Source: Candidatus Thalassospirochaeta sargassi | GTDB lineage: Bacteria; Spirochaetota; Spirochaetia; UBA9216 | Length of the DNA: 64,000 nt | Reading direction: 5' to 3' | Assembly: GCA_028532855.1 (NCBI GenBank) | Contig: JAQQAL010000040.1 | Coordinates: 1-64,000 of the forward strand | In this document: positions 31,659 to 41,340 of the stretch, in pieces | Layout: each line of letters begins with the position of its first letter | Position numbering within the stretch: position 1 is the stretch's first letter | Notes under the pieces: generated by a model | What the model was told of the DNA's origin: nothing | What the model saw: only the letters and a program-made list of their open reading frames with translations | Databases searched by the model: none | Program-made: the position numbers and the translations under genes

Positions 31659-33143
31659 TTAGTCAAGAGATAGCGCGCTTAAAAATCCCGATACGAGGTT
31701 GGCGTCCTGTCGCGGCACCACAATTATATCCCCGGCGCTCAGGGTATGAAGTTTTCGTGTGTTAATTGTCCTGGATACCAGGGCTGCAGCTTTTTTTCCT
31801 GCTGTACTACGGCCCGAGGCTGCAGGAATGAGATTATCAACGGTTTTGAGCAGGTTGGATAACCTCGAAAGTCTGAAGGCAGTCAGCAGCTGTTCGGTAC
31901 TCAGGCTGTTAGTCCAGGGATAGGCTGAGCTTCCCGCACAGAGCTGCGGAGGTCTGCTGCTGAGGAAATCGGGTGGAAACCCCGGTAGTCCCGGGACCGG
32001 ATAGAACATGGATATTCCGCTTAGCACAGGCAGTGAATGAAGATAAAGCAGGTTGTCGAGGGTTGATTCTACGCTGTCTCCTTCAAGTCCGCATATGAAG
32101 TAGGCCGTTACAGGTATTCCGGAATCAGCTGCCTTGTGTATGACCGCTTCAAGGCGTCCTGTGTCGGCAGACCGGTTCTCATTCGACAACAGACTGCTGC
32201 TGTGTGAGGCCATTGACAGGTTGAATGCCCTGAACCCCAGACGAATCAATTCACGAACCTTGTTTCCGTCAAGGAAATTGTAATCAAGACCGTTTTCGGC
32301 GGTAAACTGAGCATCTGGAAATCGCTCTTTGATAACTTTTATTACTTCAAGGAAATAATCGAAGTCAAATGTTAGATTGTCATCCTCAAAATTGATTGAA
32401 ACGTTGCGATCCTGCGGAATCAGCCCTATCTCTTTACGTACAGCATCAAGCGGGGCTTTTCTGAACCTTCGCCCGTGAACGAGATGATTTGCGCAGAAGC
32501 GGCATGCTTTAGGGCAGCCGCGGGTCAGCATGGCCGAGAAAAACCTTACATTCTTCTTTGTGGAGATGCCGGTCTCGACTGCTATGAAATCCGGTATTTT
32601 AAGCGCTGGTCCCCCGTCGACCGGCTGTCGACCGGTTCCAAGAAAGGATGGCAGCACTTCTTCGGCTGTTCCGGGCAGAACATAATCAATCGACTTTTGC
32701 GAAGAAAAATAATCCGGGTTCACGGTAACGCCGGCGCCGCCGGCGGCGACGGAAGTTTCCAGTGAAAGGGTTTTAATTGCCGTAGCAAGCTCGATGCATT
32801 GTGCAGCGTATGCCCAGGCGAAACATGAAATAAAGATGATATCCGGTTTTTCAGCAAGAAGCTGCCGTGCGCATTCCGCTGCGTCCGGACCGAAACGTCT
32901 GTATGTGCTGAAACCGGAAATCGGTCCGCCTTCTTTCGGTATGATGAAGGACTGTAAATGACCAAGTTCAGGCGGAACCGGAAGTTTTGCAGCCGGTGCG
33001 GCGAAGGTTGGAAAGTTCAATATTCTGGCATCAATATCGTGGTCCTGAAGCACCCGCTTTACGGCTTCGGCTCCTATGGCTGAAGCCCTCGACGGGGTAA
33101 AATAAAAGTCGCAGACCGATGGGACTGCAACAACGGCTTTCAT
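31659..33143 (-). CDS. B12-binding-type radical SAM protein
   Basis: A 494-aa protein with an N-terminal Rossmann-like cobalamin-binding-type domain (about residues 1-180; DIIFISCFAWAYAAQCIELA) and a radical SAM core (about 190-400) with the cluster motif CPKACRFC (CxxxCxxC). The strict cobalamin DxHxxG motif is not visible, so B12 binding is uncertain. The substrate is unknown. Its ATG begins one base after the stop of a solute-binding lipoprotein gene, so the two are translated together, an unusual partnership. Confidence 0.82.
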   Translation of the reverse strand: MKAVVAVPSVCDFYFTPSRASAIGAEAVKRVLQDHDIDARILNFPTFAAPAAKLPVPPELGHLQSFIIPKEGGPISGFSTYRRFGPDAAECARQLLAEKPDIIFISCFAWAYAAQCIELATAIKTLSLETSVAAGGAGVTVNPDYFSSQKSIDYVLPGTAEEVLPSFLGTGRQPVDGGPALKIPDFIAVETGISTKKNVRFFSAMLTRGCPKACRFCANHLVHGRRFRKAPLDAVRKEIGLIPQDRNVSINFEDDNLTFDFDYFLEVIKVIKERFPDAQFTAENGLDYNFLDGNKVRELIRLGFRAFNLSMASHSSSLLSNENRSADTGRLEAVIHKAADSGIPVTAYFICGLEGDSVESTLDNLLYLHSLPVLSGISMFYPVPGLPGFPPDFLSSRPPQLCAGSSAYPWTNSLSTEQLLTAFRLSRLSNLLKTVDNLIPAASGRSTAGKKAAALVSRTINTRKLHTLSAGDIIVVPRQDANLVSGFLSALSLD

Positions 33144-33144
33144 C

Positions 33145-34383
33145 TTATTTCTTCTGTTCCTGCAGTGTCCAGATTTTTAACATCTCGGTCAGAGATTCCA
33201 TTTCCGGTTCCAGCATATTCTGATCCTGCAGCCATGGAATAACTACATCCGCCCTTGCGGATTTCCAGTATGAGGGGAGGCTTGCCGGGAAGCTCAGGTA
33301 TCCGGCCGGCGGTACGGTTCCAATAAGTATCTTATGATATTCAGGCATAACAAGTTCATTTACATTTTGCAGGGATGAAAGTCCTCCGCATATTCCGAAA
33401 ACCCTGGAGCGCTTGAATTGGGATGATTCAAGCAGATTCTGCTGGGTTTCGCTGTTCATAAACCACATAAGGAATTGTTTTGCAGTCTTTTTTTTATTCG
33501 ATTTTGAGGGAATGCCAGCATAAACTATGTCGTCGCAAACAGGAATTTTATTTTCATCTCCGAGCCATTTAAAGTCAAGATTTGCTCGATCTTCCGCCGG
33601 TATAACGGAAAAGTCTCTGAGCGTCGTATAGTAAAACCCGATACGCTCCGCGTTAAGCAGTTTGTACCCCGGATCATAGCAGTAGGTGAGGGTGAAATCA
33701 TCTTCTTCCTGGAAACCGCCGTTGATGTTTTCGGTCCAGTCACGGCAGAAGTCGATGGAGGTTTGTAGATTTGTTTCATTCCATATCAGGCTGCCGTCGG
33801 CGGTTTCCGTGAAATCACTGCCGCTGATAAAGGCATTGTACAAGAGGAAATCAGGAATCCATGAAGGTGCAAATCCTTTGACCCTGAACTTATCGCTTGA
33901 GCGGCTGTTGAAAATCTCAGCTTCAGTTTTCAGCTTTTCGGGACTTATTATGATATCAGCAAAGGGTTCAGAGAGATTGTCCTGTTTGTACATAATTGCC
34001 GGAATGTTAAAAGATACAGGAAGAACGTAGGGTATCTCTTCTCTACAGCCGAGGCTGTAAAGATCCGGATAAAAGACCGAAGGATCAAAAAGGCCGTCTT
34101 CAATCATCTTGTCCAGGGGATTGAAGGCTTTAATAATGGAATTGGAGGCCAAATCCTCAGAAATAACGATATCGGGTGCTGAATCGGAGGCCAGGGCGTA
34201 ATAGTCAGCCGGATTTTCGGCGTATACAAGTTCGACCCTGTAGTCGGTCTGAGATGCATTGAACAACTCGACATAGGCCGCAACCTCGGGAATATCGGTC
34301 CAGAGAATTGCCGTATTGTTTTCAATAAGAAAGCAGCCCGTAAGAAAAGGAAGTATCGCTGCTGCAATTAATAATTTCTTCAT
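33145..34383 (-). CDS. Orphan family 1 solute-binding lipoprotein
   Basis: A 412-aa extracytoplasmic substrate-binding protein. The signal peptide ends in the lipobox FLTGC. The fold is that of sugar-type (MalE/UgpB) binding proteins: APDIVISEDLASNSII near the N-terminus and SNKKKTAKQFLMWFMNSETQ near the C-terminus. No permease or ATPase gene is adjacent; instead the downstream gene is a radical SAM protein. It may deliver a ligand to a shared transporter or act as a sensor. The promoter is leaderless-type and overlaps that of the divergent radical SAM gene. Confidence 0.82.
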   Translation of the reverse strand: MKKLLIAAAILPFLTGCFLIENNTAILWTDIPEVAAYVELFNASQTDYRVELVYAENPADYYALASDSAPDIVISEDLASNSIIKAFNPLDKMIEDGLFDPSVFYPDLYSLGCREEIPYVLPVSFNIPAIMYKQDNLSEPFADIIISPEKLKTEAEIFNSRSSDKFRVKGFAPSWIPDFLLYNAFISGSDFTETADGSLIWNETNLQTSIDFCRDWTENINGGFQEEDDFTLTYCYDPGYKLLNAERIGFYYTTLRDFSVIPAEDRANLDFKWLGDENKIPVCDDIVYAGIPSKSNKKKTAKQFLMWFMNSETQQNLLESSQFKRSRVFGICGGLSSLQNVNELVMPEYHKILIGTVPPAGYLSFPASLPSYWKSARADVVIPWLQDQNMLEPEMESLTEMLKIWTLQEQKK

Positions 34384-34391
34384 AGAAAACG

Positions 34392-34420
34392 AATTTAAGC
34401 GTATAAGAGCGGGTTGTCAA
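34392..34420 (-). promoter_or_regulatory. Promoter of the lipoprotein-radical SAM operon, candidate leaderless
   Basis: Minus strand -35 TTGACA (34415-34420), 17-base spacer, -10 TAAATT (34392-34397), 8 bases, ATG. Its -35 box occupies the same bases as the -35 box of the divergent plus-strand promoter. Confidence 0.65.
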
Positions 34421-34442
34421 TCCCGATGCTAATACGGATAAT
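34414..34442 (+). promoter_or_regulatory. Promoter of the YhcC-like gene, candidate leaderless
   Basis: -35 TTGTCA (34414-34419), 17-base spacer, -10 GATAAT (34437-34442), 6 bases, then the GTG at 34449. No Shine-Dalgarno is present. The -35 overlaps the opposite-strand -35 almost completely. Confidence 0.65.
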
Positions 34443-34448
34443 ATCTTC

Positions 34449-35414
34449 GTGATTAATGAACCCTTTTACAGTTACGGCAGTTATCTGAAGAAAAAATATG
34501 GCGTTCCGGCATTCAGGGTCGGAATTGACGCGGGATTCTCCTGTCCCAACCGAAAATCCGGACGGGAAAGCAGCGGATGCACCTACTGTGATGCTTTCGG
34601 TGCCCGTGCTATGTACCAGAGAACAGAGGGCGCTTTATCGGATGATGTCGATGTGAATCTGAAAAAGGATATAGTATGTCAGACAGAGAAAGCGGCGGGA
34701 TTCCTGAAGAAACGCTATAAAGCGGAGATATTTCTTCTGTATTTTCAGGCTTTTTCAAGTACCTACGGCAGTACAGAGCATCTAAAGGCTGTCTACGATT
34801 ACGCGCTCTCGCTTCAGGACTACAGTGAGCTGATAGTTTCAACACGACCGGACTGTCTGGACAGGGAAAAGGTTGAACTGCTTGCGGACTATAAAAAACA
34901 GGGGCTTGATGTCTGGGTTGAGCTAGGTCTGCAATCTTCAAATGATGCTACTTTAAAGCGTGTTAATAGAGGACACTCTGTGGCTGACTTTGAGAAGTCA
35001 TATAAGCTGCTCCAGGATTACGGAATCAAGACAGCTGTTCACCTGATATTTGGACTCCCCGGTGAGGGTGAAACTGAAATTATGCAAACCTGCAGGTATA
35101 CCGCCGGACTGAATCCGGAGGGAGTCAAGTTTCATAATCTGCATATTCCTTATAATACGCCTCTGTATCAGGACTTTTTGAAAGGTAAGGCGGATGCCCC
35201 GACGACTGAAGAATATCTGGAGTGGGTTATAAAGGCAATTCAGATGATGCCGGAATCTACAGTTATAATGCGGCTGACCTGCGACAGCAGGGAGGATGAG
35301 CGGGCAGCTCCGAAGGACTTTGTTAAGAAGACTGAGTTTTATAATCTGCTTAGAACTGAAATGCTCAAAAGAGAAGTTTTTCAGGGGCGACTTAAGGATA
35401 ATAATCTGCTATAA
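34449..35414 (+). CDS. YhcC/TIGR01212-family radical SAM protein
   Basis: A 321-aa radical SAM protein of the Elp3/YhcC-like class. The N-terminus FRVGIDAGFSCPNRKSG with the later GCTYC supplies the three cluster cysteines in the wide Cx11CxxC-like spacing of this family, and VHLIFGLPGEGETEIMQT is the conserved SAM-binding segment. The function of the family is not established. The start is a GTG; the only nearby ATG is out of frame. It is followed after 19 bases by a 161-aa gene in the same direction. Confidence 0.88.
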   Translation: MINEPFYSYGSYLKKKYGVPAFRVGIDAGFSCPNRKSGRESSGCTYCDAFGARAMYQRTEGALSDDVDVNLKKDIVCQTEKAAGFLKKRYKAEIFLLYFQAFSSTYGSTEHLKAVYDYALSLQDYSELIVSTRPDCLDREKVELLADYKKQGLDVWVELGLQSSNDATLKRVNRGHSVADFEKSYKLLQDYGIKTAVHLIFGLPGEGETEIMQTCRYTAGLNPEGVKFHNLHIPYNTPLYQDFLKGKADAPTTEEYLEWVIKAIQMMPESTVIMRLTCDSREDERAAPKDFVKKTEFYNLLRTEMLKREVFQGRLKDNNLL

Positions 35415-39345: not shown

Positions 39346-41340
39346 TTATTCAGTAAAATCTGATAAGCGGGTGTGCCCAGCCGGTTTTATGAAACGTGAA
39401 AAAACAGCAGCAATAATAGCGCAATTAACTACTGAAGCCGCGGCAAAGATATTCCATTCGGGCGCCCCGGAAGCGATACTCCCTACAAAAGAATAGAGTT
39501 TGACACTGATTGTATAGAGGCTGTCGTCGTTGAGAAATAACAGCGGCGCCATAAAGCTGTTCCATGCACCGAGGACGGCTGTCATAACGGCCGTTGTCAG
39601 GACCGGCCGCGAGAGCGGGAGGACAATTCTTCCGAGCCATCCCAGCGGAGAGAGTCCTTCTACCAGGGCGATGTCGCGGAAGGATGCCGGCATCTGCTCA
39701 AGCCAGGCTGTGATTGTGAACATCGAGAATGGAATGCTGTGATATATCGATATGATTATAAGCGGAGTATAGGAGTTTACCATTCCTATGCGTTCGAATG
39801 ATGAGTACAGCGGAATCAGTGAATGCATTCCACCCGTGATGCTGAGTATCTGGATGAAGGTTAGCGCAGCGGCGGTTGCAACCCTGCCTTTACTGTTGAG
39901 CCAGGCAGCAGCGGGGAAGCAGACAAGGGGGACCAGTATGCCTGTAAGTCCCGCTACCAGGATGGTATTCCTGAAATATATCAGGATGTTCTCTTCAGTG
40001 AAGATAGCCCTGTAGCTTTGAAGCCCTGCGTAGGGTGGCAGGGGGGCATCAATAAAACAGGCGCTGACGCCCGAAAAACTCATCCAGAAAAGCAGGTACA
40101 CAATGGCCGCTGAAGACAGAACAAGGACTGCAACTGTAAACGTACTGAAACTGCTGTTCAGGCGTTCAATGAAGCCCGCGTTGAGTCCTCCCGTGCTGAT
40201 ATATTCTTTCTTTTCCCTGCAATAATAAAGGGTGAAAAGCGCTGGAAGTATGCCCGGAGAAAGGCCTGCAAGAAAACCCTGTGTTACAATGTTGAATATG
40301 ATTAAGCCGGCGTTTATCGCTATGGACAGCTTGAAGATTCGTCTGCTTTTAAGACCTGCAAGATAGACGGCTGCAGGTATCAGGCCGGCAGTCCATGAGA
40401 AAATGATCTGCAGTGCCGCGGTGATAAAAATCAGCAGCCTGCGTTTTTTCTCCAGGCTGTATTTTCTGTTTCCGGCAACCCGCCAAATCAGCATCAGTAA
40501 AATTACGATTGCAGCCATCATGACCGAGTATGCTGAGCTTATACCGTAATCATCCGTATTGCTGAAAACATCATAGAGAAAGGTGTCGATGGTGGTCGTT
40601 GCCCCTATTACATACCTGTTTGTTATGCCCGAAAGAAGCGGCGGACCGCCTGCCGTCATCAGGAACATCAGCGTAAACTCTTTAAAGGCCTTTATGAAAT
40701 TCAGGACCCCCATAACCGTCAGGGTGCCTTTAATCTGCGGCAGATAGATCTGCGCGGCAATAACACCCTTGTCAGCACCATCCAGAATAGCTGCCTCAAC
40801 TGTGCTTGACGGAATTTTTTTCAGGGCGCCGAGCAGTACGAATGCCGTCAGGGGAACCGTCATCCACAAATTGACTATGAGGCAGCTGATAAAACCCGCT
40901 GCCGGATCCAGCATAAGGTTGACCTGAATCCCGAAGAGGCTGGTCAGAATTGAACTTCCGCCGTTTCCGTGGATTAGCGCTCTCCAGAGCGGTACTGCTA
41001 TGTAGACAGGTATACCCCAGGGGATGAGCAGGGCGGCATACAGAAGCCCGGTCATTTTTTTTCTGCCCGAAAGGGCTACAGCGATTATGAAGCTGAATAA
41101 TAGACTAAGCAAGGTAGAGCTTACCGCCCAAACAGCTGTAATGTTCAGGCTGTAACTGAAGCCGGCGTCATCACCTAGATACCTGAAGTTATCCAGGCCT
41201 GCAAAACTGCGGATTCCGTATATGTCGTGAAAAAAGGATGTTGAAAGGGCTTCGAAAAAAGGAGATATCCCCGCCACAGCTATTACAAGCAGGGCGGGAA
41301 TTATAAAATAAATCTTTACATTAAAATTAGTCCTACTCAA
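39346..41340 (-). CDS. Fused MalF-MalG-type ABC sugar permease
   Basis: A 664-aa polypeptide containing both permease halves of a carbohydrate (CUT1-like) importer. The first half (about residues 1-290) has its ATPase-coupling EAA loop at 182-200 (EAAILDGADKGVIAAQIYL). About 100 residues with several extra membrane segments form a linker (about 300-400). The second half (about 400-664) has its EAA loop at 557-575 (IALVEGLSPLGWLGRIVLP). Normally these are two genes. It overlaps the repeat lipoprotein gene by 8 bases. No ATPase gene is in the operon, so a shared MsmX/UgpC-like ATPase must serve it (inference). Confidence 0.85.
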   Translation of the reverse strand: MSRTNFNVKIYFIIPALLVIAVAGISPFFEALSTSFFHDIYGIRSFAGLDNFRYLGDDAGFSYSLNITAVWAVSSTLLSLLFSFIIAVALSGRKKMTGLLYAALLIPWGIPVYIAVPLWRALIHGNGGSSILTSLFGIQVNLMLDPAAGFISCLIVNLWMTVPLTAFVLLGALKKIPSSTVEAAILDGADKGVIAAQIYLPQIKGTLTVMGVLNFIKAFKEFTLMFLMTAGGPPLLSGITNRYVIGATTTIDTFLYDVFSNTDDYGISSAYSVMMAAIVILLMLIWRVAGNRKYSLEKKRRLLIFITAALQIIFSWTAGLIPAAVYLAGLKSRRIFKLSIAINAGLIIFNIVTQGFLAGLSPGILPALFTLYYCREKKEYISTGGLNAGFIERLNSSFSTFTVAVLVLSSAAIVYLLFWMSFSGVSACFIDAPLPPYAGLQSYRAIFTEENILIYFRNTILVAGLTGILVPLVCFPAAAWLNSKGRVATAAALTFIQILSITGGMHSLIPLYSSFERIGMVNSYTPLIIISIYHSIPFSMFTITAWLEQMPASFRDIALVEGLSPLGWLGRIVLPLSRPVLTTAVMTAVLGAWNSFMAPLLFLNDDSLYTISVKLYSFVGSIASGAPEWNIFAAASVVNCAIIAAVFSRFIKPAGHTRLSDFTE

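Follow-up and report, generated by a model that had tools for sequence, protein, structure and literature searches.

The window analysed here is a stretch of 64,000 nucleotides from Candidatus Thalassospirochaeta sargassi, in which two divergently transcribed genes face away from each other across an intergenic gap of 65 bp (34384-34448). On the plus strand lies mnmL (ytqA), which encodes a tRNA-modification radical SAM protein. Its assignment to the MnmL/YtqA family is supported by a TIGR01212 score of 258.8 bits against a curated cut-off of 180, and its GTG start codon is found in all five species of the genus. The minus strand carries a gene for a solute-binding lipoprotein followed, after a single base between the reading frames, by a gene for a B12-binding radical SAM protein. 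The lipoprotein possesses a signal peptide with a lipobox-like end, TGC, and belongs to PF01547 (solute-binding protein family 1; 29.5 bits against a gathering cut-off of 26); it has no match in NCBIfam. The genes and the features of the gap are as follows.

34449-35414, plus strand: mnmL/ytqA, tRNA-modification radical SAM protein; GTG start, predicted to be leaderless
33145-34383, minus strand: solute-binding lipoprotein gene; ATG start at 34383, predicted to be leaderless or to have a leader of 1-3 nt
31659-33143, minus strand: B12-binding radical SAM protein (PF04055 and PF02310), second gene of the minus-strand operon
34414-34420, both strands: candidate shared -35 box, TTGTCAA on the plus and TTGACAA on the minus strand (consensus scan and conservation)
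34414-34419, plus strand: mnmL -35 hexamer TTGTCA (consensus scan)
34420-34415, minus strand: lipoprotein -35 hexamer TTGACA (consensus scan)
34437-34442, plus strand: mnmL -10 box GATAAT, spacer 17 (scan; invariant in the genus)
34392-34397, minus strand: lipoprotein operon -10 box TAAATT, spacer 17 (scan; A2 and T6 kept in the class)
34412-34425, plus strand: invariant 14-mer GGTTGTCAATCCCG around the box (14 of 14 columns in five species)

An earlier note, made from the sequence of this stretch, had proposed that two radical SAM genes are linked here by competing promoters, one of them driving a lipoprotein-radical SAM operon. Both genes of that operon are present on the minus strand, with the PF01547 lipoprotein first and the radical SAM gene second; the two radical SAM genes of the note are thus the first gene on the plus side and the second on the minus side. 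The 66 bases given in the note are correct as the distance from first base to first base of the two start codons (34383 and 34449), but not as the length of the gap itself. Elsewhere in the window, positions 39346-41340 encode a protein of 664 residues in which a MalF-like and a MalG-like sugar-ABC permease domain seem to be joined in a single chain. FlaA (PF04620), a protein typical of spirochaetes, was also found to be present.

A consensus scan of the gap identified one sigma-70 type promoter on each strand, each with 10 of 12 consensus matches and a spacer of 17 bp (the rule being a TTGACA-like and a TATAAT-like hexamer 16-18 bp apart). The two -35 hexamers overlap within the same seven base pairs, the first base of the 7-mer being part of the mnmL hexamer alone and its last base part of the lipoprotein hexamer alone. 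From the end of the -10 box to the start codon there are 6 nt for the mnmL GTG (34449) and 8 nt for the lipoprotein ATG (34383). The scan therefore recovered on both strands the arrangement that had been proposed, with TTGTCAA as the -35 of both genes, a 17-base spacer on each side and -10 boxes 6-8 bases from the start codons. Promoter-like sites are common in this DNA (50 in the 19 kb scanned, against 30.4 with a standard deviation of 5.8 in shuffles), so that a single match alone would mean little, and it is conservation that makes the case.

The corresponding region was compared in five genomes of the genus, one per species, comprising the source genome and four others. The mnmL-lipoprotein pair is divergent in all five, and the shared box and both 17-bp spacers are kept in each of them, as the shared-box proposal had anticipated for related genomes. 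All six columns of the mnmL -10 box and four of the six columns of the lipoprotein -10 box are invariant among the five species, compared with 10 of the 39 other gap columns, and the distance from -10 to start codon stays at 6-7 nt for mnmL and 7-9 nt for the lipoprotein. The 14-mer GGTTGTCAATCCCG occurs once per genome in the five genomes of the genus, always at the mnmL-lipoprotein gap, and is absent from the three outside genomes among the eight searched. In G006 (L011), the other genus of the family with an mnmL match, the divergent orientation is retained, the gap is wider and no shared box is present.

The short distances between -10 boxes and start codons point to messages that begin at, or nearly at, the start codon. 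The sequence proxy for a leaderless mRNA (a -10 box at 6-9 nt) applies to both genes in all five species, and its meaning was assessed with genes called in 463 kb of the source genome, whose starts were set by coding statistics and the type of start codon alone. In 24 of the 199 genes with an upstream gap of at least 40 bp, the end of a TANNNT pattern is separated from the start by exactly 6 nt, compared with 3-14 genes at each of the other offsets from 0 to 30; where the gap is shorter than 20, the figure is 1 of 168 genes. A TTG-type -35 together with a -10 at 6 nt was found 12 times in 204 upstream regions, dinucleotide shuffles giving 0.25; the counts at 7 and 8 nt were 3 and 5, against about 0.4. 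A Shine-Dalgarno peak was seen for most other genes of the 463 kb. Judged by these counts, leaderless starts are a real minority class in the source genome, into which both genes of the pair fit, and to this extent the comparison supports the earlier prediction of leaderless promoters on both sides, in the form of transcripts that would be leaderless or nearly so. A precedent is provided by another spirochaete, Leptospira interrogans, in which about 440 messages have a 5' end that coincides with the start codon or lies no more than 10 nt away (PMC5243855). The starts were measured in that lineage and are predicted in the present one, and the sigma-70 type motif that is clear here is unreported in the available text of that study.

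The reading that we consider likely is that the gap contains two sigma-70 type promoters placed back to back on one near-palindromic -35 element, TTGWCAA, both messages being leaderless or nearly so and the two initiations alternating. On each side of TTGWCAA, a 17-bp spacer would lead to a -10 box placed so that the start codon becomes the first base of the mRNA, or nearly the first. RNA polymerase on the box would face only one way at any moment, and initiations of mnmL and of the lipoprotein-radical SAM operon would therefore have to alternate.

The bases around the box allow another interpretation, in which the 14-mer and its CGGG...CCCG arms serve as an operator, both genes are controlled by a transcription factor bound over the shared -35, and the sharing is a by-product. 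We regard this as unlikely, with evidence on both sides. Conservation in the genus extends beyond the hexamers, since the flanks GG before the box and TCCCG after it are invariant, and an inverted repeat CGGG-N8-CCCG surrounds the box (34410-34425). The TCCCG element recurs in other families; with rows weighted by family, the base directly after the box is T in 82%, and the next four columns are C (0.57, 0.46, 0.43) and G (0.56). Moreover, a flank of the CGGG...CCCG type is absent from the 79 other promoters listed from the source genome. Against an operator, the left arm of the repeat is broken in L005, the exact 14-mer is single-copy in each genome, no regulator gene adjoins the divergent pair and no regulon is visible. 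A regulon of the 14-mer was sought among its 54 near-matches with up to 2 mismatches and was rejected, 25 of the 29 examined lying inside genes.

The reading of two promoters on one -35 was then set against a wider sample. In 148 genomes of the class, a search for mnmL at an E-value of 1e-30 or better found the gene in 91, and the upstream DNA of all 91 was read. The lipoprotein is the divergent neighbour of mnmL at 51 of these 91 loci; five of the other 40 had less than 500 bp of upstream sequence, too short to show it. At 49 of the 51 divergent loci, from 20 families, the lipoprotein gene has a leaderless-type promoter with a perfect TTGACA in every case, a spacer of 17 (35 loci), 18 (13 loci) or 16 (one locus), and a start codon 6-10 nt past the -10 box. 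Positions 2 (A) and 6 (T) of that -10 box are kept in 49 of the 51. As a control, 180 permutations of the hexamer reached a median of 1 of 51 loci, the high scorers being shifted readings of the same box. The lipoprotein promoter is unusually constant, the identity of the proteins being as low as about 24%.

The mnmL strand of the 49 loci was examined for -10-like hexamers, defined by at least 4 of 6 matches including A2 and T6. Their distribution peaks at a spacer of 17 (17 of 49 loci), and spacers of 16-18 account for 21 loci; in the range from 6 to 44, the 36 spacers outside 16-18 gave 0-6 loci each, with a mean of 1.75. Where such a -10 in register is combined with the first T on the box, the box was scored as shared, which applies to 20 of the 49 loci and 9 of the 20 families. 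The other 29 have no shared mnmL promoter (a -10 of at least 4 of 6 at spacer 16-18). Within the 20 shared loci, 14 combine spacers of 17 and 17, the mnmL start lies 4-9 nt after the -10 in 16, and 16 look leaderless on both sides; of the remaining four, three are leadered on the mnmL side (distances 18, 26 and 18) and one is without a start found on that side. As a separate observation, the mnmL reading frames of L128 and L130 (G141 and G134, family f12) each contain one in-frame TGA.

The distribution of the shared state is uneven. A lipoprotein tree built by a quick method, in which three rows sit on long branches, requires a minimum of 11 changes of state, five of which are forced by well-supported branches; the tree cannot separate gains from losses. 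The first base of the mnmL hexamer is not T in 14 of the 49 loci, whereas the six lipoprotein bases never change. An mnmL -10 is present in 20 of the 35 loci with the first T and in 1 of the 14 without it (Fisher p 0.0014), an association for which the lipoprotein tree provides too few independent pairs to be supportive. Since TTGACA and the leaderless promoter are found at 49 of 51 loci and mnmL sharing at 20 of 49, the box, on the comparative evidence, is primarily the -35 of the lipoprotein gene, and its use by mnmL is patchy and confined to a subset of the class.

The same asymmetry could be taken further, to the view that the box serves the lipoprotein promoter only, that mnmL transcription begins at another site or at a -10 promoter independent of a -35, and that the GATAAT in register is partly luck. 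The universality of the lipoprotein promoter against an mnmL use of 20 of 49 at most agrees with this, as does the loss in several lineages of the base specific to mnmL, beside six constant lipoprotein bases. It does not explain why the genus keeps GATAAT and its 17-bp spacer unchanged in a gap that varies elsewhere, nor the spacer-17 peak on the mnmL strand (17 loci against a mean of 1.75), which would be unexpected if the box were idle in that direction; we find it doubtful. The view that promoter-like words merely fell together in AT-rich DNA, to which the scan of 19 kb might lend some colour (50 sites, shuffles giving 30), is scarcely credible in view of the conservation in five species and the register kept across 9 families, and is refuted as far as sequence conservation can refute it.

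We retain two promoters on one -35, with unequal roles, as the likely reading. The lipoprotein gene, always with the consensus TTGACA, would hold the box in place across the class; mnmL would use these base pairs in the form of a weaker hexamer, TTGTCA, some lineages keeping a -10 box in register. The -35 element is contacted by sigma region 4, and exclusion would occur at that contact. We infer mutual exclusion from promoter anatomy, and the start sites are likewise predicted from it; competition between the two promoters is a fair reading of that anatomy, and the importance of exclusion would depend on promoter strength. The idea that the site links two radical SAM genes fares less well: in the class as a whole the box belongs to the lipoprotein gene, mnmL shares it in a patchy fashion (20 of 49 loci), and G006 has no shared box.

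Shared boxes were also sought outside the mnmL locus. A loose pattern, ANNNT-N17-TTGWCAA-N17-ANNNT, has 20 sites in the source genome (G000), 13 of them intergenic and 8 in divergent gaps, and 79 in the five genomes of the genus. The half-shifted control, counted in both orientations, gave 25 and 114, respectively, and the off-register pattern with spacers one base longer gave 3 sites. Because the control in the source genome yielded 25 against 20, most two-sided sites are expected to be one-sided promoters plus chance, and a genus- or genome-wide class of shared -35 promoters was rejected for want of any excess of the loose pattern over this control. With a strict pattern, the 148 class genomes contain 44 in-register sites in 34 genomes, compared with 3 sites in 3 genomes when both sides were shifted and 27 in 22 when one side was shifted (both orientations). 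With about 24 expected without sharing, this suggests a modest excess of about 20, which includes orthologous copies, and we do not claim a widespread class.

Several individual sites deserve mention. At L114 (1795-1845; G000:C35:26194-26244), a second shared box of doubly leaderless type, TTGACAA, is flanked by TATACT and TATATT at 17 bp, each 6 nt from its start codon; the genes on the two sides encode a thioredoxin/DsbH-like protein of lipoprotein type and a methyltransferase. The box is kept in G001 (L121, C178), though the proteins are 52% identical, and is the one further convincing case in the source genome. A recurrent two-sided box, TTTCCTTGACAAAG, was seen at L089 (G008:C13:19140-19190) and in G023, G046, G062, G076 and G114, from several families; these sites have the look of one orthologous bidirectional promoter, and no RNA family beside L089 was matched in Rfam. 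Around position 1501 of L072 (G000:C9:99436), the sequence TTGGCAATCCCG has -10-like boxes TATACT and TAATAT at 17 bp on the two sides, separates the genes of an acyltransferase and an M29-like peptidase, and carries the same TCCCG flank as the mnmL box. Another two-sided box, at L118 (1685-1735; G000:C44:139584), lies between a TPR gene and a LysM-domain gene, and its motif is also present in G001 and G004.

Divergent promoters placed back to back point outward from a short gap and usually have separate -35 boxes. The pair described here resembles them in its short gap and two outward promoters and differs in having one -35 common to both. It also resembles the bidirectional promoters of Warman, Grainger and colleagues (PMC12825309, PMC10268837), in which a symmetric element is read in two orientations, one at a time, giving divergent mRNAs. 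As described in the available text of these papers, those promoters share the -10 element, their divergent starts lie 7-25 bp apart and most often 18, and separate divergent promoters are placed outside the bidirectional class; at the mnmL locus, the -35 is shared, the predicted starts are about 66 bp apart, and the -10 boxes lie 39 bp from each other (34397 to 34437), which sets the locus apart from the -10-sharing promoters as defined in that text (PMC10268837). For Escherichia coli -10-sharing promoters, it is reported that no competition occurred at basal activity, which was too low, and that it arose only when one direction was strongly activated (PMC12825309). The Pc and Pr promoters of plasmid pLS20, as described in PMC4207663, are similarly divergent, of unequal strength and not occupied together; in that pair, each promoter has its -10 on the -35 of its partner, and a regulator and DNA looping take part, whereas the mnmL and lipoprotein promoters point away from each other from a common -35. 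We found no shared -35 box described in the literature, which is weak evidence of absence since "-35" is a poorly searchable term. As far as the available texts extend, the bidirectional promoters described in the literature share the -10 element, and the -35-sharing geometry appears to be new.

At its boldest, the locus would represent a distinct kind of bidirectional promoter, -35-sharing and doubly leaderless, acting as a conserved two-way switch in which one site sets the ratio of MnmL to the lipoprotein operon, the central base of TTGWCAA is fixed for the lipoprotein consensus, and a factor on the CGGG...CCCG arms could turn both genes off; this remains speculative, and we offer it with little confidence. 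A conserved case of -35 sharing would be a second geometry of the bidirectional promoter, with a rule of its own, and its starts, about 66 bp apart, would fall outside the 7-25 bp window used on start-site maps. Because the first and last bases of the 7-mer each belong to one hexamer, the locus would make a clean test. If competition were nil, it would be merely a very compact intergenic region. The locus also suggests that leaderless messages form a regular class in this lineage of spirochaetes.
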